From a virus: 25,728 bases of DNA. Positions within the stretch are counted from its first letter, which is position 1. The number at the start of each line of letters is the position of its first letter. Below, piece after piece: positions 8,573 through 22,821 of this stretch. The stretch covers positions 1-25,728 of IMG/VR virus record IMGVR_UViG_3300036768_000186; one strand, given 5' to 3'. Position numbers and translations under genes: made by a program. The notes beneath the pieces are model-generated. The model made no database searches and had not been told where the DNA came from. It was given only the letters and a program-made list of their open reading frames with translations.

Positions 8573-9703
8573 ATGGTAGACAAGACCGACATCGTGAATA
8601 TGGCTCTGCAAACGATCGGAACCCGTACCACGGTGACGGCTGCGGAGCTTGCGAATGAAACTTCCAACGAAGCTATTCAAGCGAACCTTGTCTACGAGCG
8701 GTATCGGGATGAGCTTTTGCGGATGGCTCCTTGGGATTGTGCGCTTAAGACCGCTGATCTTGTCTACATCACCTCATTGCCGGGGACGGCCGAGAATACG
8801 TCCCCGGCGACAAGCCAATGGCAGTACGGTCAACCATCACCGCCGTGGAGTTATGAATATCAGTATCCGGCGGATTGCCTTAAAGCTTGCTGGATCCTTC
8901 CGGGATCGAACAGCGGTTGGTCCGGCGGAGTGCCGATTACAACGGCGGTGACTGGTCGGCCTTCGACTTGGTACAAAGGCCCGCCGGTTAAGTTTAAGGT
9001 GCACACGGATAACTTTTATTACGTTACAGGAGTGTCAGTTGTTTCGGGCGGTTCGGGTTATGCTGTCGGTGATGTGCTTCAAGTCGGTGGGCTTTCGCCG
9101 AGTCAGGTGCCGGACGGCAACCCGCCGATTGGGGCGCCGGTGCTTGTGAGGGTAACTGGCGTTGGTGCCTCCGGCGCGGTTCAGACGGTGGAGATCCTAA
9201 ATCAAGTCCACGGCGCTAATCCAGTTGTCGGCGGCAGCTATTTTGCGCCTCAGACCGGCAACCAACCGGCGGTGGTTCAATGGCGGTATAGGCTTCCGTC
9301 GACCACAGGTTCATCTGCAAGCTTCTCACTGACATGGGCTTCGGCTCCGTCGCCGCAGCGCGTGATTTTGACAAACCAGTCAAAGGCGGTCTTGGCGTAT
9401 ATCCAACGGGTCGAGAACCCGAATGTGATGGACGATCTGTTCCTGCGGGCATGGATAAATCTGCTTGGCGCGGGGCTGTGCATGGCGTTGACTGGGGACA
9501 AGTCACTTGCAAACGGGAGGATTCAGCTTGCCAATGAGGCGATTCTTGAGGCGAGGAAAGCCGACGGAAATGAAGGTCTGACCGTTAATGATGTGACGCC
9601 TGACTGGCTTCGGGCTAGAGGGCTTACCTACCCGGACGTGAATATTGGTTTAACCGGCCCTGATACAGCGTATGATTGGGGCGGGCTTTGGGCTAGTTGG
9701 TGA
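8573..9703 (+). CDS. Tail tubular protein A (T7 gp11-like adaptor) with inserted domain
   Basis: This 376-residue protein is the ring that joins portal to tail nozzle. The N-terminal half fits the family: DIVNMALQTIGTRTTVT, NLVYERYRDELLRMAPWDCALK, then YQYPADCLKACWI. The C-terminal helical part resumes at about residue 260 with RVILTNQSKAVLAYIQRVEN, DDLFLRAWINLLGAGLCMALTGD and ANEAILEARKADGNEG. Between them, residues about 151-255 form an extra beta region (VSVVSGGSGYAVGDVLQVGG, RVTGVGASGAVQTVEIL) not present in the basic fold. T7 gp11 is about 196 residues, so the insertion explains much of the added length. The next gene is tail tubular protein B, as in T7. The start follows AAAGG in the preceding gene's end. 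Confidence 0.87.
   Translation: MVDKTDIVNMALQTIGTRTTVTAAELANETSNEAIQANLVYERYRDELLRMAPWDCALKTADLVYITSLPGTAENTSPATSQWQYGQPSPPWSYEYQYPADCLKACWILPGSNSGWSGGVPITTAVTGRPSTWYKGPPVKFKVHTDNFYYVTGVSVVSGGSGYAVGDVLQVGGLSPSQVPDGNPPIGAPVLVRVTGVGASGAVQTVEILNQVHGANPVVGGSYFAPQTGNQPAVVQWRYRLPSTTGSSASFSLTWASAPSPQRVILTNQSKAVLAYIQRVENPNVMDDLFLRAWINLLGAGLCMALTGDKSLANGRIQLANEAILEARKADGNEGLTVNDVTPDWLRARGLTYPDVNIGLTGPDTAYDWGGLWASW
8779..8808. other. Perfect 10-bp GC-rich hairpin within the adaptor gene
   Basis: Arms GCCGGGGACG (8779-8788) and CGTCCCCGGC (8799-8808) pair perfectly around a ten-base loop, and a T·G pair can extend the stem. It lies inside the coding sequence for residues LPGTAENTSPAT. No T-run follows. 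It may slow ribosomes at a domain boundary or only reflect codon choice. Confidence 0.5.
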
Positions 9704-9708
9704 CGCAG

Positions 9709-12507
9709 ATGAGCAACCCGGTAATTCAAGCGACATTTAACGGCGGTGAGTTTAGCCCGTTTCTTTATGCGCGGGTTGACTTGCAGAAGTATCGGCAAGG
9801 CGCGGCGTTGCTTGAGAATTTCTTCGTTGATTACCGTGGTGGAGCTAGCACAAGGCAGGGCACGCGGTATGTCTTGCAGGCGTGGAAGTCAAACAAGCCG
9901 GTTCGTATTATCCCGTTCCAGCCAAGCTTTGTACTTGGTTACATCCTTGAGTTTGGCGATTACTACATGCGGCCCTTTTACAACGGCGCGCCTATACTTG
10001 AAACGGCCGTTGCCGTTACCGGAGCGACACAGGCAAACCCGTGCGTTATCACTGTCACGAACAGCTGGTCGGTTGGGGATTGGATTTACATCTCCGGCGT
10101 CGGCGGGATGACGCAGCTTAACAAACAGTATTTCAGGGTTAACGCCCGGACAGCAACAACTGTCACGCTTGGTGATCTGCAAGGGAATCCGGTTGACTCA
10201 ACGGCATTCTCAGCTTTCTCTGGAGCAGGAACAGCGGCGAGGGTTTATACGATAACGTCGCCGTACGCGGCAGCTGATCTTGCCTTGATTAAGTTCGCGC
10301 AGAATGTGAACTCGTTGATAATCTGTCATCCGAATTACACTCCTTACGCGCTAAACTTTGTTTCGAACACAAACTGGAGTTTTAGCCCGATTAGTTTTGT
10401 TGCTGGTATCCCGGCGCCAACTGGTGTGGCGGTTACAACATCGTTATCTGCGGGCAGTGTAAACTACGCGTATATTGTGACGGCGGTTAATTCATCTGGC
10501 GAAGAAAGCCCGCCGTCGATTCCTGGAACGCTTAACAGCCGGCAAGATTTGCGGTCGGTTGCAGGCACAAATACTGTTACTTGGGCTGCTGTTTCGGGCG
10601 CCGTCTCTTACAACGTTTACAAAGCAATGCCAACCTACGGCGGTGTTGTTGCTTCTGGTGTTCAGTATGGGTATATCGGCACGGTTACTGGAACAACTTT
10701 ACAGGACAGTAACATCACACCGGATTTTTCTATCTCGTACCCGGTGACCAGAAATCCGTTTGGCGGCTCTGGTGTGTCTTCTGTTACGGTGACGAATCAA
10801 GGGTCGTATAACGCTCCTGGGCCTACTGTTTCTTTTTCGGCCCCGACGTCCGGCACAACTGCGACAGGTATTTGTGTTTTCACCGCGATTGGGACTTATG
10901 ATTTGGTTGGTGGTTCTGGTTGGGCCGGCACGGTGGGGCAGGTTATTTCGCTCGGTTATGGGGTTAAAATCCGGATTAATTCTGTCTCTGGAGCCGGAGC
11001 CATTACAAGTATTTCGCTTGTAGACGGTGGGTATTCTCTTGGTGCAATCCCGGATAATCCGTTCTACATCGGCAGCGGTGCGCGGGTTAATTTGAATTGG
11101 GGCGTTTTAGCAGTCAACATAATCAACCCCGGCTCAGGGTATACCGCACCACCAACGGTCACGTTTTCAAGCGGCACCGCAGCGGCCACAGCGACTATAG
11201 GATCAAGCTCGCTTGGCAATCCATCTGTACCGGGTTTTGCGCAGCAACGTTTGTGGCTCGGGAACCAACAACTGGCCCCGCAAACGTTCCATGTCTCGCA
11301 GCCAGGGAATTTTTACAATTTCAATATCTCATCCCCGATACAAGCTTCTGACGCGATTGAGTCAACGCTGTCCTCCGGTGTGTTGAACGAGATCAAGGCG
11401 ATGATTGCGCAACAAGCGGGGATGATAATTCTTACGAATAACTCGGCGTGGCTCATTACCGGCGGTCAGCCGGGGTCGGCTATTACACCAATTAACGTGA
11501 CTGGCAACCCACAAAGTTGGATCGGCTCGAACGATGTGCCGCCGATTGTTGTGAACCATGATATTCTTTTTGTGCAGTCGAAGGGATCGGCTGTTCGGAA
11601 TATGTCCTACAACTTCTATACTAACGTTTATACCGGCACTGACATTTCTGTTATGTCTAGCCATCTGTTCTACGGCCATCAAATTGTGGAATGGGCTCTT
11701 GCGTTGGAGCCTTTCAAGTTGATTTGGGCTGTGCGAGATGACGGGGCTTTGCTTACGCTGACCTTTATCAAAGAGCAGGAGTTTATCGCTTGGTCACATC
11801 ATACAACGCAGGGTTTGTTCAAGTCGATTGCAGCGATTGTTGAGCCTGTCAGCGGTGTGTACAACGATGCTGTCTACGTCGTTGTACAACGAACGCTGAA
11901 CGGATCGCCGGTGCAATATATCGAACGATTTGTTGATCGTACTTTCCCGGCTGGGCGGGTCAGCGCTTGGTCTGTCGATTGTGGGCTTCAGTATAACTCG
12001 ACACCAACCACAACATTTTCTGGAGCGCAGCACCTTGCCGGGATGACGGTTACTGGCGTAGCTGACGGGGAAGTGATTGAACCGTTTGTAATGCCAGCGA
12101 GCGGTACGTTCACACTGCCGGCAGCGGCTGGCGTTGTCACAATCGGGTTGCCTTTCACAGCGAAGCTCAAGACCCTTGCCATTGACATTGGCGATCCGAC
12201 GATACAGGGTAAGCTTAAGAAGATACCAGACGTTACCGTTCGCTGCGTTGACACGCTCGGGATTAAGATCGGATCAAACTTTGATCGGCTTGTGCCAATG
12301 AAAGACTTCCAGATCGGGCAGGTATCCGGCGCGTTGTCTGGGCAGGACTCGCAGGTTGTCACGGATTTGGTCACTGGTGACGGTATCACAGTGCTTGATC
12401 CAACCTACACGTTGCCGGGGCAGTATTGTATTCAGCAAGATAAACCGTACCCAGCAACGATCCTTGGTGTTATTCCAAACCTTGTTTTGGGAGATACCGC
12501 GCGATGA
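9709..12507 (+). CDS. Tail tubular protein B (T7 gp12-like nozzle), enlarged
   Basis: This 932-residue protein forms the tail nozzle through which DNA leaves. Family marks are ATFNGGEFSPFLYARVDLQK, LLENFFVDYRGGASTRQGT, YILEFGDYYMRPF, then FAQQRLWLGNQQLAPQTFHV, FNISSPIQASDAIE, IILTNNSAWLI and QYIERFVDR. Residues about 100-180 resemble an FCCH-like beta module (GDWIYISGVGGMTQLNKQYF). Residues 235-345 look fibronectin III-like (PTGVAV, VNYAYIVTAVNSSGEESPPS, YNVYKAMPTYGG). Residues 352-505 carry repeats of the GSGY type (VTVTNQGSYNAPGPTVSFS, NIINPGSGYTAPPTVTFS). I chose the ATG at 9709, six bases after the previous stop; TTG at 9697 and GTG at 9700 are in-frame alternatives that overlap it. T7 gp12 is about 794 residues, so the extra length matches the inserts. 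Confidence 0.87.
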   Translation: MSNPVIQATFNGGEFSPFLYARVDLQKYRQGAALLENFFVDYRGGASTRQGTRYVLQAWKSNKPVRIIPFQPSFVLGYILEFGDYYMRPFYNGAPILETAVAVTGATQANPCVITVTNSWSVGDWIYISGVGGMTQLNKQYFRVNARTATTVTLGDLQGNPVDSTAFSAFSGAGTAARVYTITSPYAAADLALIKFAQNVNSLIICHPNYTPYALNFVSNTNWSFSPISFVAGIPAPTGVAVTTSLSAGSVNYAYIVTAVNSSGEESPPSIPGTLNSRQDLRSVAGTNTVTWAAVSGAVSYNVYKAMPTYGGVVASGVQYGYIGTVTGTTLQDSNITPDFSISYPVTRNPFGGSGVSSVTVTNQGSYNAPGPTVSFSAPTSGTTATGICVFTAIGTYDLVGGSGWAGTVGQVISLGYGVKIRINSVSGAGAITSISLVDGGYSLGAIPDNPFYIGSGARVNLNWGVLAVNIINPGSGYTAPPTVTFSSGTAAATATIGSSSLGNPSVPGFAQQRLWLGNQQLAPQTFHVSQPGNFYNFNISSPIQASDAIESTLSSGVLNEIKAMIAQQAGMIILTNNSAWLITGGQPGSAITPINVTGNPQSWIGSNDVPPIVVNHDILFVQSKGSAVRNMSYNFYTNVYTGTDISVMSSHLFYGHQIVEWALALEPFKLIWAVRDDGALLTLTFIKEQEFIAWSHHTTQGLFKSIAAIVEPVSGVYNDAVYVVVQRTLNGSPVQYIERFVDRTFPAGRVSAWSVDCGLQYNSTPTTTFSGAQHLAGMTVTGVADGEVIEPFVMPASGTFTLPAAAGVVTIGLPFTAKLKTLAIDIGDPTIQGKLKKIPDVTVRCVDTLGIKIGSNFDRLVPMKDFQIGQVSGALSGQDSQVVTDLVTGDGITVLDPTYTLPGQYCIQQDKPYPATILGVIPNLVLGDTAR

Positions 12508-12908
12508 AGGTTTTGCTAACTCAGGTGGGGTTAGATGACGTTATCGGCGCAGTGCCTGAGGAGCACCGAAAGCAGTTCTATGACTGCGCCAACACGTCTC
12601 GGCAACTTTGGGTTGGGCTTATCGAAGGCAACGTTGTTTGTGTCTGGGGTTTGATCCCGCCGACGCTTTTGAGCTCGCGAGCGTATCTGTGGCTTTACAC
12701 AACAGATAACCTCGACGGGAATGAGTTTCTCTTTGTTCGGCACAGCCAGCGCGCGATTGAAGAGATGTTGAAGGAGTATTCGGTTATTTACGGACATACT
12801 GAGCCAGGCTTGCCGCGCACGCATAGATGGCTGCGTTGGCTTGGTGCTCAGTTTGGGGAACAACAGAACGGTCTAATTCCTTTTGAGATAAGGAAGAAAG
12901 ATGGCTAG
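12504..12908 (+). CDS. T7 gp13-like internal virion / GNAT-like protein
   Basis: This 134-residue protein has the strand-helix order of a small acetyltransferase-like fold: an N-terminal strand and helix, LWVGLIEGNVVCVWGL, LLSSRAYLWLYTT, a long helix (HSQRAIEEMLKEYSVIYGHTE) and a final RWLRWLGAQFGEQQNGLIPF. The last motif, R-x-L-R-W-L-G-A, is typical of the gp13/DUF2833-type proteins that precede gp14 in T7-like late modules. A clear acetyl-CoA loop (Q/RxxGxG/A) is not visible, so enzymatic activity is doubtful. Its start overlaps the previous stop (ATGA), and its end overlaps the next gene by eight bases. Role in virion assembly is inferred from position. Confidence 0.68.
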   Translation: MKVLLTQVGLDDVIGAVPEEHRKQFYDCANTSRQLWVGLIEGNVVCVWGLIPPTLLSSRAYLWLYTTDNLDGNEFLFVRHSQRAIEEMLKEYSVIYGHTEPGLPRTHRWLRWLGAQFGEQQNGLIPFEIRKKDG

Positions 12909-13440
12909 TCCAGCTGTACTTACGACAACATCAATTCTGAGCTCCGCTGCTGGCGGGCTCATAGGCGCGCTTGGCTCGTGGCAGAGCGGTAAGGCAAGAG
13001 CATCTGCGTACCAGTTTCAGGCTGGTATCTCGCGAATGAATGCGGAGATTAATCGAAGAAACGCACAGAACGTGCTGGAGACCGGGGATCAGGAATTGCT
13101 GAGCCTCGGCCGAAGGCAGGCGCAGCAGATGGGGCAGATCAAAGCCGCGCAGGCAGCTAGCGGGCTTGATATGAATTCAGGCACGGCGGTAGCGGTGCGT
13201 GAAAGCCAAGAGATGTTGAACCGCGAGGATCAACAAAGGCTGGCTTCGCAGACAGCGAGGAAGGCTTATGCTTACAACGTTGCCGCTGCCGGTGACCTAG
13301 CGCAGGCAGCGTTGTATGATTCGGCAGCGATTAACGCCAGAAAAGAAGGCAAGCTTGGGGCTCTGACTTCGCTTATCTCTGGCGCAACGTCTGTCAGCAG
13401 TAAGTGGCTTCAAGCCTCTCAATACGGAGTATACGGCTGA
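12901..13440 (+). CDS. T7 gp14-like internal virion protein B
   Basis: This 179-residue protein begins with a small-residue hydrophobic stretch (SILSSAAGGLIGALGSWQSG) able to insert in membranes, then long Ala/Gln-rich helices (AYQFQAGISRMNAEINRRNAQ, RRQAQQMGQIKAAQAASGLDM). This is the composition and order of gp14-type ejection proteins, which leave the virion first and form the channel in the outer membrane. The motif SGLDMNSGTAVAVRESQEML is typical of the group. Length is close to T7 gp14 (196 residues). It lies exactly between the gp13- and gp15-like genes. Its stop overlaps the next ATG (TGATG), indicating coupled translation. Confidence 0.82.
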   Translation: MASPAVLTTTSILSSAAGGLIGALGSWQSGKARASAYQFQAGISRMNAEINRRNAQNVLETGDQELLSLGRRQAQQMGQIKAAQAASGLDMNSGTAVAVRESQEMLNREDQQRLASQTARKAYAYNVAAAGDLAQAALYDSAAINARKEGKLGALTSLISGATSVSSKWLQASQYGVYG

Positions 13441-15599
13441 TGCCTCAGGTTCCTTACACAGGCACGAATACAGTTTCGGCCACGTCGGTATCGACACCGG
13501 GCATTAACACCCGCGCAATGCCTGAGGCGTGGGGTTCTAATGTTGGTGAGGGCAACCAACGCCTTGGGCGGCAGCTTGAAGCTACCGGCGATGAGATTTT
13601 TCAGCGCGCGATACAGCTTCAGGCGGTGGCGAATGACGCTGCTGCAAAGGAGGCGGAAGCTCAGTGGATTGAGCAATCCGCAGATTTGCATGTTGAGTTT
13701 AAATCGCTGAAAGGCCAAGCCGCGGTTGATGCTCGGCCAGCGCATATTGAGAAGCTACGTGAGCTTCGGGAGAGGATTCGAGAAAGTCTTCCGAATGACA
13801 TGGCGCGGAAGATTTACGACGGAACGACGCGACAGTCATTTGCCAGGTCGGCCTTCAGCGCGGCGGAGTATGCAGCGACGCAGCTGGATCAGTATCGCAA
13901 GACGGCGGATAAGGCAACGCTTGAAGCTTACCGGAATAAAGTTGATCGGCTGCCGGATGATCCGAGCGTTATTGAAGAAGCTATTGCCGCTTCGGATTCA
14001 GTCATCAACGGCCTTGGACGCCTTGATGGATTGCCTGAGCAAGAGATCGAGAATAAAAAGGCAGGTTTCCGTAGCGAGCTTTGGCGGACGAAGATCGATG
14101 CTTTGGCGAGGAAGGATCCAGAAGCGGCATCGGAGTTGCTATCCCGCGCCCGCGAGAAAGGAGAAATCCAAGGATCGGATTACCAAAAGACTTTGGTAAC
14201 GGTGCAGTCGCAGCTTCGCACGCGCGGGGCGAAGATGATCACGGCCGCGGTGAGCGAGGGTTGGGCGCCGTATATGAAGCCGGAGTACATCGCCCGGGCG
14301 GACGGTGTTGAGACGGCGTTGATTGATGTTGTGAAGGAAGCTCAACGCGCGAATCCTGATTTGGAGTTTATCATTGGCCATGAAGGCGGGCGGCGCAGCC
14401 AAGAGACACAGGACCGGCTGGTGGCGGAAGGAAAGAGCCAGACGCGGAACTCGCAACATCTCGCCGGGCGCGCTGTTGATCTGTTGCCGCTGAAAGATGG
14501 CAAGGTCGCTGGGCGTGACGGAGAGCTTGTCAAGCGCGTTGAGCGGGCGATGTATGAGGCTGCGGAACGCCTTGGCGTGAAGTTGTCGGATAGGCGGATC
14601 CCGTGGGACCTTGGGCATTTTGAATTGGCAAAGGACTTCGATACCGCGGCTTATGAAAGCCCGAGAAAGGCTGAGCCGGTCGAGGAGCAAGAGGCGAGGG
14701 CGAGGGAGTACGCGCAAAAGACGGGTGGCGCTGATCCGCTTTATCCAGAGTATGTATCGAGCGCGGTGGTTGCGAAGCATCGCCGGGATAAAGCGCTTGT
14801 GGAGATGAAGAACAACACGAACCGGATTAAGCTCGACGAGTATATCTACGGCATTGCCACCGACGGAGTGAAGCCGCGGGACCTCGATGAATTGCGCGCA
14901 ATGGGCGGTGAGGCGATTTCAGGTATCTTGGACTCGATGGACGCAACGCAGCTGCGCGGGGTCATGGCGAAGCTTGCGAAGAATGACAAGGAACAGCTTG
15001 TTGCGGATTCCAAGCTTGAGTACGTGAACCTGGTTGGGCTTGCTGAGACGGACCCGTTGAAGTTTGTTAACACGGACCTAGGTGAGTATAGACTGACCGA
15101 CGAGGATCGGAAGAAGCTACTGCTGTTGCAGCAGAAGAAGTTGAAGAACGCGGAGCAATCCCCGCGTACAGCTTGGGCTCTGCAACAGCTCATGCCGATG
15201 TTGTCGGCGGCCGGGATCAAGAACTCCGGAAGCGAGACGAAGAAAAAGCAGTTTCAAATGTTCAATGGCGCGTTGCATGTCGCGATCGAGGAGTGGCAGG
15301 ATATTCATGGCAAGGCCCCGACGGCTAAGGAAATCATCAATGAGATCGGCCCGCGGCTATTGCATGAAGTGTCTGTGCCTGGAACGATCTTTGGCGATGT
15401 TTGGCCGTCGAAGGTTAGAACGTTTAACCTTCCGGTGCCGAATGAGTTCAAGAAGAAGCTTGAGGAAGCGGCTTCCGCTGAGGGTGTGCCGGTGAATGAT
15501 ACGTTGATACAGCGAGCGTACCTGCGTCAGCTGTACCGGGAGATGTGGGGCGGTAAGAAGGAAGGCAAAGGTGACGGATTATCTAAAGCTTCTCAATGA
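13440..15599 (+). CDS. T7 gp15-like ejection protein with embedded M15 peptidase domain
   Basis: This 719-residue protein is mostly helical, and its size and place match T7 gp15 (747 residues), a periplasmic tube component of the ejection machine. Residues about 285-405 are different: they hold an M15 zinc peptidase core, with EFIIGHEGGRRSQETQDRLV, SQHLAGRAVDLLP and WDLGHFEL. The zinc ligands are predicted as His340, Asp347 and His393, all present, so it should be active against peptide cross-links. This gives the virion a cell-wall-cutting activity during DNA entry. The remaining parts are charged helices. The ATG at 13440 overlaps the previous stop; an in-frame ATG at 13404 would overlap that gene by 37 bases. 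The 3' end overlaps the next gene by 29 bases. Confidence 0.83.
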   Translation: MPQVPYTGTNTVSATSVSTPGINTRAMPEAWGSNVGEGNQRLGRQLEATGDEIFQRAIQLQAVANDAAAKEAEAQWIEQSADLHVEFKSLKGQAAVDARPAHIEKLRELRERIRESLPNDMARKIYDGTTRQSFARSAFSAAEYAATQLDQYRKTADKATLEAYRNKVDRLPDDPSVIEEAIAASDSVINGLGRLDGLPEQEIENKKAGFRSELWRTKIDALARKDPEAASELLSRAREKGEIQGSDYQKTLVTVQSQLRTRGAKMITAAVSEGWAPYMKPEYIARADGVETALIDVVKEAQRANPDLEFIIGHEGGRRSQETQDRLVAEGKSQTRNSQHLAGRAVDLLPLKDGKVAGRDGELVKRVERAMYEAAERLGVKLSDRRIPWDLGHFELAKDFDTAAYESPRKAEPVEEQEARAREYAQKTGGADPLYPEYVSSAVVAKHRRDKALVEMKNNTNRIKLDEYIYGIATDGVKPRDLDELRAMGGEAISGILDSMDATQLRGVMAKLAKNDKEQLVADSKLEYVNLVGLAETDPLKFVNTDLGEYRLTDEDRKKLLLLQQKKLKNAEQSPRTAWALQQLMPMLSAAGIKNSGSETKKKQFQMFNGALHVAIEEWQDIHGKAPTAKEIINEIGPRLLHEVSVPGTIFGDVWPSKVRTFNLPVPNEFKKKLEEAASAEGVPVNDTLIQRAYLRQLYREMWGGKKEGKGDGLSKASQ

Positions 15600-18500
15600 G
15601 ACTGTTGAGTCGCTAGACACAGAAATTGACGTTGCAGTTGCTTCTGGCATTGATGGTGATCCGGAGGAATACTCGCGGGCGCATAAGCTGTCGAAGGCCA
15701 GCGGTATGCCTGTCGGTGTTATCTACCCGCGGCTCGACGAGTACGATCAAGAGACAAAGACAATCTTTGCACGGGATATTGTAAAGAACAATCCGTATCT
15801 CCGCGAGATTATCCTGCGCGATCCGTTGTCAGCGAAGGCGCTGAATAAGGACTACGCGAATATTGATAAAGCCACGGAGTCGGTGACGCAGATGTTTGAG
15901 CCGTCGCTGTCTGATGGGATTATCGAAACGTACCGAAAGCTTGAAAACGGCAAAGAGCTTCCTGAATGGGCAAAGAATAGTCCGTATGTTCTGCCTGCGG
16001 AGACTGAGGACGCAACTTGGAGCGGAAGCCCCGGCGCGGCTGCATTGGATTTTGGAAAGGGATTTGTTAGAGGCGCCAAGGATATCTTCGGCCAGGGTGT
16101 AAAGGGCTATGCCGCGCTGCTGAACGCTGTGAAGCCGCTCGGCGAGGTTCCGGACCCCTACGGGATCAATCCTTATATGGACCCTGAAACCGGATCGGTA
16201 ACGCGAAGCTCGCTGGAGGCGTTTAAGCCAACCCCGCTGAAGGACTCACTGCTTTATAAATTCGGGCAGGCGATCGAGGACCTTGGCAAGGATACGTTGA
16301 GGGAAGGCCGGCCGTATCCAGGGCAGGGGTTTGTCAGCGACCTCGGAAGCGGCGCCGGTAGCATGGCGGCTGGTATTGGCGTAGCATCGCTGCCGCTTGT
16401 TGGCCCGGCCGCGGCTGGTGCGTTGTTCGTTGGCGCTGGCGCTGGCGAAGCAGCGGATCGCGCGCTTGCGTTTGGCGCTTCGCCTGAGCAGGTTCAACTT
16501 GCCGCGCAGCTTGGCACGATCGCTGGCGCGACCAACTTCGTTGATGTGCTGATCGCGAATAAGGCGCTTGGTTCGGTGAAAGCCGTCAATGAGTTTTTGA
16601 AGCGGGTGGGGCTTGTGCCTGTTGGTGTTGCTCTTGCCGAAGGCGGGCAGGAAGGGTTGGAGCAGTTTGTGCAGAACATGATTGCGAAGGGGGTTTACAA
16701 CCCGGACCAATCATTGATGGAGGATGTGGCTTACAACGCGTTGATTGGCGGGGTTCTCGGCGGGGCTGTCCACGGCTTGCAGGCATTGGCGGATCGACAG
16801 GTTCAACGATCGACGCAGGAGATTGTTAGGCAGATACAGGAAGCGAATTTGTATCTGCAAGAAGGCAAGAGCATTCCTGTTGGGCTCAACCCACTGTTTG
16901 ACCGGGCCATCGCACAACAGGCAAAGATCGACGTGCAACGGCTTGACCGGGCCTTGGCCGATGCAATGCAAAGCGAGTCGCGGGAAAAGAACCCGGACTT
17001 GTTGGAGGAGATTTATCGCATCCAAACCAACGCGCGGATTGGGATTAACGTAGATGCGGTTGCTGCTTTGTACGGTAATGAAACGCCGTACGAAGGCGAT
17101 GGCAAGCTTGGTTTGGTCTCAGACATCACAGAGCAATTTCAGCTTGCGGTTGAGACCGGTTCTGATATCGAAATCCCGCTGGCGACTTGGTTAGCGAAGG
17201 TTGATCCAGAAGTTGCAAAGGCTCTTCGAGAGGATATTCGCGTTAGGCCGGGGTCGTTGACGCTGAAGGAAGCGGCGGCGATTGATGAGCGGTATTCCGC
17301 GGAGGGGTTTGAAAGCTCCAGCGTGCGACGGAAGAGGCCGAGCAGCGAGCAAAAGCCGCAGGTGTCTGTTGAAGAGCTTCAGCAGCCGAAGCAAGGCACG
17401 GATGAGTCAGCTGTGCGTGTTCGGCCGGCGGATCCGGTGGAAACTGTTCGAAAGGCTTCAGGGCTTGAGCCGTTGTTTGCTATCGGCGATCGCAGGTTGA
17501 CGATGCGGCCGATTGACGTGTTCAATTATAAGACCCCGCTTGGGAATCCGGAAAGCGTAAATACGTTCGATCTGTACGACTCCTCCGGCCGCAACGTCGG
17601 GATAATGGATATTACAGTTAAAGAAGGCGGTAAGGTCCTTTGGGTCGAGAATATTGCTCGGGACTGGAAGCTTGGGCCGGTTGCAAATCAATTCGGCCCA
17701 TCGGTAATGAGGGATTTGATCCTGCAATTGAAGGGGAGGTTCCCGCAAGCTGAGCGCGTTGGCGGGTTTCGTGTTTCAGGCGCACGGGATAAAGCCGGGA
17801 AGCAGGGCGAGGCTTGGATCAAGCTTGATGAGAACGCTATCGAGGAAGCTTTTAAAGAAGGTGATTCTTCATGGGAGCTCGCCTCAGAGGAAAACGGTTT
17901 GTGGTATCAAGTCGGTTCGACGGAGGTTTTAGTCAAACCGAGCGAGGCTGTGACAGAGCGTGAAGCAGAGCTTACCAAAGCTGTTGAAGAGGCTTTGCTG
18001 AGGGTTGCTGGGGATAAGGTAACGGCTGTTGGAGGGCAGCGGCTGCGCAGCGGTTCTAGGGAACCGCTTGGTGCGTATATACAGTTTGCCGATGCTTGGC
18101 CTTTGATTCTGTGGGCTTTTGAGGATCCGAACGCGCTAGGTACGGTTAGACACGAAGCGATCCATCATCTGCGACAGTATAATTTCTTCAAGCCAGAGGA
18201 ATGGAATATTCTTCGGCAGGCGGCGTTGAGCGAGCGTTGGATTGAGAAATACAACATTAACCAACGTTACCAGAACCTGAGCGTAGAGGAAAAGATCGAA
18301 GAAGCCATCGCCGACGCGTTCAAAGATTGGTGGCTTAATTCTGCGAAGATCCCGCAGGAAACACAGCCGATGTTCGAGCGGATCAAGGAATTTTTGCAGG
18401 AGATAATCGAGAAGGCGAAGGGGATACTTGGAAAGAAAGACCTGACTTGGGAGGACATTTTCGTAAAGGTTGAGTCCGGTGAGATTGCTTCCAGAGGTCC

Positions 18501-21500
18501 CGGCAAGAGCAGAGTTAAAGGAGCTTTTTCAGAAAAAATGGCCGAGCGGCCGTTTGTTAATGCAGCGGCGTTCGGGAATCTTGAAGAGAATTACCGACGG
18601 TATCTCGAAGCGATCCAGCAACGCCAGAAAGAAGATTTCGAAAGACTGCTTGGGCAGAAGCAAAATGAAGAAACCCGCCGACAGAGTGCTGAATGGCAGA
18701 ATGAAGAAGCCGCGCTTTGGCCGCAGGTGGCGCAAGAGCTGAAAGAGCGGCCGGACTTCCGTGCGGAGGCGTTCTTCCGTGACGGACTGTTTATGGGTAC
18801 GAAGCTTGAGGGGGTCGCCCCGAAGCTTGCCAAGGAGTATCTGCGTGAGGATGAAATCTCAGCGCTGCCGTCGGACTTCGTCGCGAAGAAAGGGCTGCAT
18901 CCGGACGATGCCGCAGCTTTGCTTGGGTTCCGTTCTGGCAGCGAGATGATATCGGCCCTGGCCGCGTTGACAGAGAAGCGTCGAAACACGCCGGGCAGGC
19001 CGGATAATTTCTTCCGGAAGATGGTTAAGGATGAGGTTCAGCGACGGCTTGAATTGAAGTTTGGGAAGCTCGAAGAGAACATCCTTGAGGCGGCGAAAGA
19101 GCAGGCTCTGTCGGAGAGCCAGATCAACCTGCTTGCGGAAGAAATGTTGTTCTTTGCATGGGCTGCTGGGGAGGAGTTTGAAATAGATGGTAAGGCGATT
19201 AAGGCAAAAGCTAAAGAAGCTTTTGAAAAAACGTTGGTTGATCGTGTGTCTAGCGATAAGCTGCTAGCGGCTGCCGAGCGAGAGTATCGGAATGTCGAGA
19301 CCGCGTTGTTGAAGAATGATCCGGCGGCCGCGTTTGTTGCTTCACAGCGAAGGTACCTTGCTGCGCTCGCCGCGAAGGAGGCGGTTGCGTTTGAGCAGGC
19401 GCAGGCGAAGTATAAGAAGTTTGTAAAACGGTTCCGGAAGTCGGAGGTTAAAGGGATTCATCCGGATTATTTGGTTTATATCCAACAGCTGCTCTTGCAA
19501 AAGGGTGAGCGGGTGTCTGTGACACCGCAGCAGATTTCTGACACGCTTGCTGCGAAGGGTAATGGGACGTTGCCTGAGTTTGCAAATTACGTTTACCAAA
19601 CTTCCGGATATGAAATTTCTGTAATGCCTGAGATTGAGGACGGTACGTTTGACTTTATCAAAGATAAGATGGCCGTCACTCAGTGGTACGATTACTTTGA
19701 CACGCTTGTGTCTCTGGCTCATGCTGGGCGGGAGGAGAATCTTGTTAAGGAAGGGGATGAAAGGGTAGAGCTGGATAAAGTTGTGCAGGAGATTGTCGGT
19801 AATATCGAGACTCTGCCCGAGCGCAGCCGCGAAAAACAAGGGCGGTGGTTGTATAGATTTGAAGCGATGCTTCTTCGGCCGGAGAACTTGCTTAAGGACC
19901 TTGACCTTCGACAAGCGTTCGGGCCGCTTTTCCGGCATGTGATTGTGCCGCTGATGCAGTCGAAGTCGCAGGAGTTTGATCTGATCAAAGAGTTGAATGA
20001 GAAGATAGAAAAGATCAAAGGCGACTTCGGTAAGCAATGGAAGAAGACACTGCGGGATGTGATACCGCAGGATATCATCTACGATCCTTTGTACAAACGA
20101 CCGATGAAGTTGACCCGCGAGATGTTGCTGAACATCATGCTGAATTGGGGCAACCGGTCGAATATCGAGAAATTCACACGTGGGTACGCGAGCCTCCTTC
20201 TTGGCAGGCTTGCCACAAAAGAAGAAGCGGCGGACTTCGAGGCGAAGGTCAAGGCGTTGATAGACAAACATGCCACAGAGCAAGACTGGAAATGGGTCGA
20301 GGCTATGTGGGACATCTTCAAAGGCTGGCGGCCGGAGATTGTAAGGAACCATGTTAACCTCACTGGCGTTGCGCCGAGGCTTGTTGAGCCGACGCCGGTG
20401 AGAACGCCGTTCGGCGTGCTTGAAGGTGGGTACTGGCCGGTGATGTATGACCAGCTATCGCCGAGCATGATGGTGCTTAAGGCCGAGAAGAAAACGTCTA
20501 CAGACAGTTTGTTTGGTCCGACGTATATGAGCCCGAGCACGTCGAAGGGGTACTTGAAAAAGCGGACGAGTTACGTTGACTTCGTCAATATCAGCACGTC
20601 AATTGAGCAAGCCGCGGCAGTGATGCAGCAGACAATTCATGACATCGCTTTCCGCGATAGCTTGATGCAGGCTAGGAAAATCCTGCTTGATCCGCGCGTT
20701 TACAGCGCTATCGTGAAACATTACGGGATTGAATATGCAGAGCAGTTATTGCCGTGGCTTCAACGGATCGCGAATAAGTACCCGATCGATTATTCGGTCT
20801 CGACATTCAGCAAAGCCCTCGAATGGATGCGGGTTGCCATCGTTTCAAACGCATTGCCTCTTAACCTTGTGGTTCTCGCCACACCAGATGTTGGCAAGGT
20901 ATCGCCGGTCGTGTGGGGGCAGTATATGGCAAACAAAGCTGAGTGGGACAAGATCGCGGAGACACATTCGAAGGAGATCAAGCATTTGGTCTTCAACCTC
21001 GACCGCGACTTTAGCGATGCTTTGGAGTACATGACAAAGAATAAATTCTCGCATTTCCAGCGAGAAGCGGTTAAATTCGGCTACATGCCTGTTACGAAGC
21101 TGAGCCAATTCTTCCGCACAGCTACGTTTGTTTCGGAATTTCAGAAGGCGAAAGCCGAAGGGTATTCCGATCACGAAGCGGCGCAGATCGCCGACGGTTA
21201 CGTTCGCGAGAGGCACTCAGGAGCGCACACAGTTGACCTTGCACCGATGCTTGCGAGCAAGAATGCAGCGCTGCGAAGCTTGACGATGTTTTACATGTAC
21301 TTCAATACCATGGCGAATTGGGCTAGGACGATCCCCGGCCACGTTCGGCGCGGGGAGTACGGTGAAGCGTTTCAGGTCGCGTTGGCGTCGATAATCCTCG
21401 GCGCTGCGCAGAATGCTGTTTTGTTCAGCCCGCCCGGCGAGGAAGAGGATTGGTGGAAATGGCTTGGCCGCGCTGTGGCGGGACAGACCATGAGCTTTGT

Positions 21501-21813
21501 TCCGCTGGTCCGGGATGTTGCTAATTTCATGTTTGAGGGTTTCGAGACACGGTCGCCGCTGGACACGTTTATGAGAACCAGCCAACAAGCGTACAAGGAA
21601 ATTGCGCGGTTGATCGAGGGCGACGAAACAAAGAAGCCGATTAAGGTCGCGGCGAATGTTGTTGGCCTTGGCCTTCGCGTTCCCGGCGCAGAGATCGGAC
21701 GGCAAGGGCAGAGTATTGCGGATCTTTGGACCGGCGAGAAGGCGCCGGAAGGGTTCTGGCAATGGGTTAATCAGATATTCCACGGTACACCAAACCCAAG
21801 AGAAAGGAAGTAG
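15571..21813 (+). CDS. Giant T7 gp16-position ejection / polyvalent protein with zincin motif
   Basis: This 2080-residue protein sits where T7 has gp16 (1318 residues) and is probably ejected with the DNA. Residues about 264-294 and 384-405 are Gly/Ala-rich hydrophobic segments suited to membrane insertion (IGVASLPLVGPAAAGALFVG, ALIGGVLGGAVHGLQAL). Residues 631-760 form an alpha/beta region, perhaps GNAT-like. Residues about 840-935 hold a zinc peptidase motif, HEAIHH (His861, Glu862, His865), with a downstream EEAIADAF (Glu911) as likely third ligand. Residues 1005-1050 are charged coiled helix. The C-terminus from about 1737 resembles the LPD38-type domain of phage polyvalent proteins (ALEWMRVAIVSNALPLNLVV, LTMFYMYFNTMANWARTIPG). 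I see no transglycosylase motif. The GTG start has AAGGA upstream and overlaps the previous gene by 29 bases. Confidence 0.82.
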   Translation: MTDYLKLLNETVESLDTEIDVAVASGIDGDPEEYSRAHKLSKASGMPVGVIYPRLDEYDQETKTIFARDIVKNNPYLREIILRDPLSAKALNKDYANIDKATESVTQMFEPSLSDGIIETYRKLENGKELPEWAKNSPYVLPAETEDATWSGSPGAAALDFGKGFVRGAKDIFGQGVKGYAALLNAVKPLGEVPDPYGINPYMDPETGSVTRSSLEAFKPTPLKDSLLYKFGQAIEDLGKDTLREGRPYPGQGFVSDLGSGAGSMAAGIGVASLPLVGPAAAGALFVGAGAGEAADRALAFGASPEQVQLAAQLGTIAGATNFVDVLIANKALGSVKAVNEFLKRVGLVPVGVALAEGGQEGLEQFVQNMIAKGVYNPDQSLMEDVAYNALIGGVLGGAVHGLQALADRQVQRSTQEIVRQIQEANLYLQEGKSIPVGLNPLFDRAIAQQAKIDVQRLDRALADAMQSESREKNPDLLEEIYRIQTNARIGINVDAVAALYGNETPYEGDGKLGLVSDITEQFQLAVETGSDIEIPLATWLAKVDPEVAKALREDIRVRPGSLTLKEAAAIDERYSAEGFESSSVRRKRPSSEQKPQVSVEELQQPKQGTDESAVRVRPADPVETVRKASGLEPLFAIGDRRLTMRPIDVFNYKTPLGNPESVNTFDLYDSSGRNVGIMDITVKEGGKVLWVENIARDWKLGPVANQFGPSVMRDLILQLKGRFPQAERVGGFRVSGARDKAGKQGEAWIKLDENAIEEAFKEGDSSWELASEENGLWYQVGSTEVLVKPSEAVTEREAELTKAVEEALLRVAGDKVTAVGGQRLRSGSREPLGAYIQFADAWPLILWAFEDPNALGTVRHEAIHHLRQYNFFKPEEWNILRQAALSERWIEKYNINQRYQNLSVEEKIEEAIADAFKDWWLNSAKIPQETQPMFERIKEFLQEIIEKAKGILGKKDLTWEDIFVKVESGEIASRGPGKSRVKGAFSEKMAERPFVNAAAFGNLEENYRRYLEAIQQRQKEDFERLLGQKQNEETRRQSAEWQNEEAALWPQVAQELKERPDFRAEAFFRDGLFMGTKLEGVAPKLAKEYLREDEISALPSDFVAKKGLHPDDAAALLGFRSGSEMISALAALTEKRRNTPGRPDNFFRKMVKDEVQRRLELKFGKLEENILEAAKEQALSESQINLLAEEMLFFAWAAGEEFEIDGKAIKAKAKEAFEKTLVDRVSSDKLLAAAEREYRNVETALLKNDPAAAFVASQRRYLAALAAKEAVAFEQAQAKYKKFVKRFRKSEVKGIHPDYLVYIQQLLLQKGERVSVTPQQISDTLAAKGNGTLPEFANYVYQTSGYEISVMPEIEDGTFDFIKDKMAVTQWYDYFDTLVSLAHAGREENLVKEGDERVELDKVVQEIVGNIETLPERSREKQGRWLYRFEAMLLRPENLLKDLDLRQAFGPLFRHVIVPLMQSKSQEFDLIKELNEKIEKIKGDFGKQWKKTLRDVIPQDIIYDPLYKRPMKLTREMLLNIMLNWGNRSNIEKFTRGYASLLLGRLATKEEAADFEAKVKALIDKHATEQDWKWVEAMWDIFKGWRPEIVRNHVNLTGVAPRLVEPTPVRTPFGVLEGGYWPVMYDQLSPSMMVLKAEKKTSTDSLFGPTYMSPSTSKGYLKKRTSYVDFVNISTSIEQAAAVMQQTIHDIAFRDSLMQARKILLDPRVYSAIVKHYGIEYAEQLLPWLQRIANKYPIDYSVSTFSKALEWMRVAIVSNALPLNLVVLATPDVGKVSPVVWGQYMANKAEWDKIAETHSKEIKHLVFNLDRDFSDALEYMTKNKFSHFQREAVKFGYMPVTKLSQFFRTATFVSEFQKAKAEGYSDHEAAQIADGYVRERHSGAHTVDLAPMLASKNAALRSLTMFYMYFNTMANWARTIPGHVRRGEYGEAFQVALASIILGAAQNAVLFSPPGEEEDWWKWLGRAVAGQTMSFVPLVRDVANFMFEGFETRSPLDTFMRTSQQAYKEIARLIEGDETKKPIKVAANVVGLGLRVPGAEIGRQGQSIADLWTGEKAPEGFWQWVNQIFHGTPNPRERK

Positions 21814-21814
21814 T

Positions 21815-22132
21815 ATGAGAGTTTTGTTGATCCTGCTGGCGCTGGCTACGCCTGCGAATGCGGCCAGCCTAAACGCGATTGTGGCCCGGCTTAAAGCCGA
21901 ATGCGGCGCGAGGGTGATTTCCGGTTACAGGGACACGTACACGCCGTTCGGTGTTAAATCCTGCCACGCCACAGGGCAGGCCGTGGACGTTGTCGGGAAT
22001 TACAGCTGCATGTACCGTGTGCTTCGCAGTTGGCCCGGTGGGTATACAACCGATGCGGATCGATGCAAGCATATTCACGTTTCTAGCTGCAAAATGGAAT
22101 GGGGCCTGAGGTTCAGGCATCGGACATGTTGA
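21815..22132 (+). CDS. Exported, cysteine-rich M15-like peptidase
   Basis: This 105-residue protein has a signal peptide (MRVLLILLALATPANA, cleaved after Ala16) and a mature part of about 89 residues. The core reads VISGYRDTYTPFG, SCHATGQAVDVVG and KHIHVSSC, matching the S-x-H-x-x-G-x-A-x-D and H-x-H pattern of Peptidase_M15_3-type metallopeptidases. The predicted zinc ligands are His51, Asp58 and His86 or His88. Six cysteines (30, 50, 65, 84, 92, 105) suggest up to three disulfides, so it probably works in the periplasm. I chose the ATG at 21815, one base after the previous stop, because AAGGAAG and the signal peptide both fit it. It opens the lysis cassette. It may help cut cross-links after Sec export, or modify the wall earlier. 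Confidence 0.75.
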   Translation: MRVLLILLALATPANAASLNAIVARLKAECGARVISGYRDTYTPFGVKSCHATGQAVDVVGNYSCMYRVLRSWPGGYTTDADRCKHIHVSSCKMEWGLRFRHRTC

Positions 22133-22425: not shown

Positions 22426-22821
22426 ATGCCCGATACCCAAGCACGTAGCGTGAGGAATTTGGAACGGGTTCATAAGGACCTTGTGAAGGTCTATCAAGCG
22501 GCCTACGATAAAGCCGAAGTGAAGCCGGTCGTTACCGAGGGCGCGAGGACGTTGGAAAGGCAAAAGCAGCTAGTCGCTGCGGGCGCCAGCCGAACGCTTA
22601 ATTCCCGGCACATTCCTGGCAAGGATGGAACAGCGAAGGCGATTGATGTCGCTTTCTTCATCAACGGTAAGGTTCGTTGGGACTGGCCTTTGTATAAGAC
22701 CTTCGCGGATGTGATGAAAGCAGAAGCAAAGCGCCTTGGCATTCCAATTGAATGGGGCGGAGACTGGCGCAGCTTCAAAGACGGACCGCATTTTCAGCTT
22801 CCGTACGGGGTGTATCCATGA
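22426..22821 (+). CDS. Endolysin, M15C L-alanyl-D-glutamate-type peptidase
   Basis: This 131-residue protein is a compact endolysin that should cut the peptide stem of peptidoglycan. It shows the complete M15C core: TEGARTLERQKQLVAAGASR, NSRHIPG followed by AIDVAFF, then WGGDWRSFKDGPHFQLP. The zinc ligands are His62, Asp74 and His122, with Asp119 as the probable catalytic base. Length matches T5-type and related single-domain endolysins. There is no signal peptide, so release should depend on a holin, for which the 54-residue protein at 23361 is the candidate. GAGAGGAG precedes the ATG. Its stop overlaps the start of the hydrolase gene (ATGA). Confidence 0.9.
   Translation: MPDTQARSVRNLERVHKDLVKVYQAAYDKAEVKPVVTEGARTLERQKQLVAAGASRTLNSRHIPGKDGTAKAIDVAFFINGKVRWDWPLYKTFADVMKAEAKRLGIPIEWGGDWRSFKDGPHFQLPYGVYP

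Follow-up and report, generated by a model that had tools for sequence, protein, structure and literature searches.

A predicted M15C peptidase module in an exchangeable hydrolase slot of the gp15-position ejection protein of a BPP-1/AF-type phage

The window, i.e., the whole stretch of DNA analysed here (25,728 nucleotides, a 25.7-kb IMG/VR virus record), encodes a gp15-position protein in which a complete M15C zinc peptidase module lies between two helical flanks. It is likely that the gp15-position proteins of phages of the Bordetella BPP-1/Pseudomonas AF type are helical scaffolds with an internal socket near residue 270, at which whole hydrolase modules are exchanged, and that in the window an M15C peptidase with a role at entry has replaced an SLT-like module. 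With somewhat more reserve, it also appears probable that, across this widespread podovirus group, wall hydrolases of several unrelated families and of both glycan and peptide chemistries are swapped at this socket, perhaps in step with the wall chemistry of new hosts; M15C and an unannotated module would be two of its rare occupants. Computational analysis identifies the domain with its fold and catalytic residues, locates the insertion site, demonstrates the exchange of modules, and provides a second example of the same arrangement.

The gene lies within an ORF at positions 13404-15599, and a plausible start codon (ATG at 13440) gives a protein of 719 aa, in which the residue numbers assigned to the metal site in an earlier note on this DNA (His340, Asp347, and His393) are exact. 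The same note had placed the protein in the gp15 position, in agreement with the gp14-like gene upstream, the gp16-like gene downstream, and a scaffold of the PHROG_10475 family (Table 1). The tail, internal, and gp16-like genes of the window match PHROGs 394, 376, 418, and 9880, and the gp16-like protein has matches in Cobetia phage Carin1, Pseudomonas phages AF and UFJF_PfDIW6, Vibrio phages, and Bordetella phage BPP-1 (Bbp10). PHROG_10475 matches the N-terminal part of the gp15-position protein (residues 1-297, 1.4e-20); the same family is matched by BPP-1 Bbp11 (753 bits) and, over nearly their whole length, by the proteins of two relatives (L017 and L020), to both of which the window protein aligns on both flanks. 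Based on the gp16-like matches and the kinship with Bbp11, the window phage, which is short-tailed, belongs to the BPP-1/AF group, and this group rather than T7 is the relevant comparison. The earlier interpretation stands as regards a gp15-position protein with a complete M15 domain and predicted peptide chemistry, but not in its choice of T7 as the frame of comparison. The structural match to T7 gp15 (6yt5_A) is weak (rank 9, E 0.11, prob 0.38), so that the label "gp15-like" is founded on the order of the genes and on kinship with Bbp11. Single-sequence searches of IMG/VR with gp15 or gp16 found no close relatives, so that profile searches were required, and tblastn of the N-terminal flank against INPHARED gave no matches. 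In the tail protein of the window (9697-12507, PHROG_376), Pfam reports an E1_FCCH-like stretch at residues 124-181, an oddity that is also annotated in Vibrio phage MZH0603.

Table 1. Coordinates of the gp15-position gene, its module and predicted active-site codons, and related genes in the window.
Feature	Positions	Strand	Basis
gp14-like internal virion protein	12901..13440	+	PHROG_418 internal virion protein, 1.1e-17
gp15-position ejection protein, 719 aa, BPP-1 Bbp11/PHROG_10475 family, with embedded M15 module	13440..15599	+	ORF; PHROG_10475; gene order gp14-gp15-gp16
N-terminal helical flank, residues 1-271	13440..14252	+	32% identity to L017 over 1-274; AF2 helices 28-274, pLDDT mostly about 95
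M15C zinc peptidase module in the slot, residues about 272-412	14253..14675	+	Pfam M15_4; PHROG_465; Foldseek to ChiX/LysECD7/T5 endolysin; unrelated module there in L017/L020
His340 codon, predicted zinc ligand	14457..14459	+	Invariant across 47 M15 sequences
Asp347 codon, predicted zinc ligand	14478..14480	+	Invariant across 47 M15 sequences
Asp390 codon, predicted catalytic acid/base	14607..14609	+	Invariant across 47 M15 sequences
His393 codon, predicted zinc ligand	14616..14618	+	Invariant across 47 M15 sequences
C-terminal helical flank, residues 413-719	14676..15596	+	34% identity to L017 over 413-705; AF2 helices
gp16-like ejection protein of 2080 aa without a transglycosylase match; zincin-like HExxH at residue 861 (18151-18165)	15571..21813	+	PHROG_9880, 7.9e-108; relatives in BPP-1, AF, Carin1
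Stand-alone M15 endolysin, 131 aa, separate gene	22426..22821	+	Pfam M15_4, 1.6e-9; PHROG_465, 6.5e-53

Residues of approximately 272-412 form a complete M15C module (L-Ala-D-Glu endopeptidase-type) by sequence and predicted fold, and a chance resemblance is ruled out. The earlier note had described a complete M15 core inside a helical ejection protein, and profile matches agree: Pfam Peptidase_M15_4 covers residues 333-396 (7.1e-5; 23.8 bits in the protein scan, just under the curated cut-off of 25 bits, and 27.6 bits, above it, in the DNA-level scan), PHROG_465 (endolysin) matches residues 286-428 (4.7e-22), and a profile built from 80 M15 endolysins matches the protein at 7.4e-25. No match was found in NCBIfam. 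In an alignment of 47 M15 sequences, all 14 invariant columns are kept in the slot module, including the His/Asp/His zinc triad with its H-x6-D spacing (His340, Asp347, His393) and the predicted catalytic Asp390, three residues before His393. A phmmer search against the PDB retrieved the M15C endopeptidases LysECD7 (8q2g), RB49 (23ri), ChiX (5opz), and T5 (2mxz). Compared with the extent previously proposed (14292-14654), the foreign module is slightly wider (about 14253-14675). Its G+C content of 0.588 is in slight excess over about 0.55, which is uninformative on foreign origin.

Structure prediction points to the same family. In Foldseek, six M15C-type structures (5opz, 8q2g, 23ri, 2mxz, and 2vo9 among them) match the module's AF2 model (pLDDT 85) with a probability of 1.00, and ChiX superposes on this model with an rmsd of 1.7 Å over 118 columns. 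In the full-length model, an all-helical N-terminal part (28-274) is followed by a low-confidence linker (275-281), the alpha/beta M15 module, and helices from residue 414 on. The predicted chemistry of the slot module is peptide rather than glycan cleavage, and we infer both its enzymatic activity and its bond specificity. The module shares its fold, zinc ligands, and catalytic Asp with the T5 endolysin, ChiX, LysECD7, RB49, and the catalytic domain of Ply500; however, these known M15C enzymes are small, free proteins, mostly endolysins, whereas the window module forms part of a helical ejection protein of 719 aa and has no WGG.W loop, the near-invariant W and G columns of the 47-sequence alignment being empty in the window. 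This loop lies near the active site and is frequent in M15C endolysins, but does not supply catalytic residues. Its absence from the window suggests that substrate preference may differ.

In relatives, the same place holds other enzymes or none. Pfam finds SLT domains in BPP-1 Bbp11 (325-406), Carin1 gp33 (276-379), AF gp15 (277-372), BL94 (359-433), and PfDIW6 (269-380), M23 in ctEw122 (329-426), and GH108 in ctQRb9 (295-370), and detects no module in the 542-566 aa proteins of MZH0603, PS25B.1, DC33, and vir555. Bbp11 and AF gp15 resemble the window protein in gene position, length (700-720 aa), homologous N-terminal flank, and module site, but carry an SLT transglycosylase domain instead of an M15C peptidase. 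To obtain a broader set of relatives, profiles of the gp16 C-terminus were used, which yielded three sets of 80 loci and a close clade; slot classes were assigned with profiles built in this analysis. Among the resulting 176 gp15-position proteins, 47 carry SLT modules (42, plus five of a divergent SLT-like type that hhalign relates to SLT at 96%, 4e-9), 23 carry M23, 10 GH108, two a tail lysozyme (Phage_lysozyme2), five an unannotated candidate module, and one, that of the window, M15C; a few hold other or unclassified content. The remaining large class (66/176) has no assigned module and a length of at most 620 aa (median 565.5 aa), which fits an empty slot, compared with a median of 719 aa where a module was assigned. 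The median starting residue of the modules lies at 255-287, independent of module type. Since relatives hold sugar-chain cutters, other peptidases, or nothing at this site, the gp15 slot can be regarded as a socket for different tools.

A second gp15-position protein with M15C in the same slot (L351) was found in a further scan with the window's own clade. It shares the junction GWAPYMKP and the catalytic residues with the window protein at an overall identity of 28%, and its existence makes a mis-assembly of the M15 segment in the window unlikely. Other proteins in that scan contain SLT-like modules, a short slot, or content without a class. M15C is rare in the slot, being present only in the window and L351 among the records searched.

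Several further slot contents were observed. The unannotated module of L029, L031, L037, L039, and L070, with the pattern SYR..DHPLSK..SWHT.SHAAVDV...HATGDHWHIVL, is a candidate new wall-hydrolase family; a weak match to the PHROG_894 endolysin was seen in L070 only. An assignment of this module to M15 (as "M15b") was rejected, as hhalign to M15 gave no support. The 960-aa protein of L077 (3301-6183) carries an SLT and then an M15_3 domain in tandem, i.e., two chemistries in one ejection protein. Nine long gp15-position proteins of 757-889 aa without a slot class (L307, L310, L314, L315, L317, L325, L326, L340, and L342) may hold further unknown modules.

The nearest relatives of the window (L017, L020, L184, and L185) have a transglycosylase-like module where the window has M15C, and in L017 and L020 this SLT-like module sits between two flanks that both align to those of the window protein (identities for L017 in Table 1). 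A tree built from the gp16 C-terminus (109 rows) groups the window with four SLT-like rows as their sister (support 100), and the state of the slot changes at least 44 times, compared with a minimum of 7. When changes are counted on well-supported branches only, SLT still requires at least 19, the short form at least 17, and M23 at least 11. Some of the changes on this tree could represent exchange of the whole gp15 gene. Exchange inside the gene is evident in close pairs: L027 (M23) and L029 (other module) are 57-92% identical in C-terminal blocks 441-680 and unlike in the slot, and the same holds for L264 (M23) and L254 (empty), while in some other close pairs gp15 is too diverged to tell a module swap from a whole-gene swap.

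With regard to origin, the M15 module in the window's slot pairs with that of L351 as its sister (99/97), and the endolysin of the window phage falls outside this pair. That endolysin is 62% identical to a stand-alone M15 protein of another locus (L129) and only 36% to the slot module. A recent duplication of the endolysin into the slot was therefore rejected, the endolysin being nearest to stand-alone endolysins. A tree of the flanks separates the scaffolds of the window and L351, but an AU test does not reject their clade (p 0.34), and the two may have inherited M15 jointly with the scaffold. The 80 nearest M15 relatives retrieved are essentially all free-standing endolysins: 79 have frames of their own of 121-225 aa, and the longer frame of the remaining one (L168, 296 aa) may simply reflect an upstream start codon. 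The window also contains a third M15-like gene, a small ORF at 21815-22132 (+) that seems to encode a signal peptide and has a weak M15-like motif (SCHATGQAVDV...HIHVS), for which Pfam M15_4 scores 14.9 bits on 21860-22132.

The retention of the zinc ligands, the catalytic Asp, and all 14 invariant columns in an intact predicted fold, together with the same catalytic set in L351 despite the low overall identity, makes it unlikely that the M15 module has degenerated, or persists only as a structural remnant, and lacks enzymatic activity, although the WGG.W loop is missing, the Pfam score in the protein scan is low, and the 66 lengths that fit an empty slot imply that hydrolase activity is dispensable in the group. 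A second reading, in which the gp15-position protein joins an endolysin of the lysis stage to another phage protein and acts at lysis rather than at entry, takes its plausibility from database names: PHROG_10475, PHROG_1044, and AF gp15 are labelled "endolysin", and BL94 "lysis protein". These labels are probably misleading for this family. The gene is flanked by gp14-like and gp16-like virion genes, its scaffold is common to phages without a recognised enzyme in the slot, no signal peptide was seen at the N-terminus on inspection by eye, and the window has a separate stand-alone M15 endolysin, which together leave action at lysis with little probability.

If the module instead acts at entry, as we prefer, the gp15-position protein would be carried inside the virion and, on ejection, would reach the periplasm together with the gp14-like and gp16-like proteins. 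The tethered M15C zinc peptidase would then cut the stem peptides of peptidoglycan locally, allowing the DNA conduit to cross the wall, and the tether would confine the damage to the entry point. Such a mechanism would imply a division of labour between a virion-borne enzyme at entry and the stand-alone M15 endolysin at exit.

The earlier note had further proposed that the wall-cutting function passed from gp16 to the gp15 position and took on a new chemistry; T7 has its transglycosylase in gp16 and the window gp16-like protein has none, but throughout the BPP-1/AF group it is normally the gp15-position protein that bears the hydrolase, usually a transglycosylase, and the window's closest kin carry an SLT-like module there, so that such a shift is barely credible and the change is better described as an exchange within gp15. 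The reported lack of a transglycosylase motif in the gp16-like protein was itself borne out at the Pfam level, where only LPD22 (large polyvalent protein associated domain) was found at residues 24-98 (9.7e-7; 15571-15900). A conserved HExxH had gone unmentioned: in the window it reads HEAIHHL, followed by EEAIADAF, and of 177 gp16-like relatives 167 have an HExxH, in most cases as LSTFLHE.GH, for which Pfam has no name. This motif marks a second predicted zinc enzyme in the gp16-like proteins of the group.

The principle of a virion-borne wall hydrolase (PMC8954989) is shared with T7, as are the gene order gp14-gp15-gp16 and a helical gp15-position protein; however, T7 gp16 bears the hydrolase, a transglycosylase, in its N-terminal part, and the structural match to T7 gp15 is not significant. 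Another parallel is gp35 of phages K1E and K1-5, a gp15-like protein that also bears a wall hydrolase but belongs to another phage group and carries a lysozyme, i.e., an enzyme of glycan cleavage; swaps of the hydrolase between gp16 and gp15 homologues in these phages have been described by Swanson et al. 2022 (PMC8954989). A hydrolase on a gp15 homologue is therefore already known. Reports of M15 or M23 domains in gp15-position proteins were not found in the open-access literature. Isolates such as BPP-1 and AF have Gram-negative hosts. According to a 2018 review, virion lysins of the endopeptidase type are found almost only in phages that infect Gram-positive bacteria (PMC6116005). If the phages with M15 or M23 in the slot have Gram-negative hosts, as BPP-1 and AF do, these modules would depart from that rule. 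The socket pattern across the group is of more interest than the single M15C case: in nature, one ejection-protein scaffold takes many wall hydrolases at one fixed site, which makes it testable whether entry enzymes are matched to the peptidoglycan of the host and whether peptide cutters are able to replace glycan cutters at entry.
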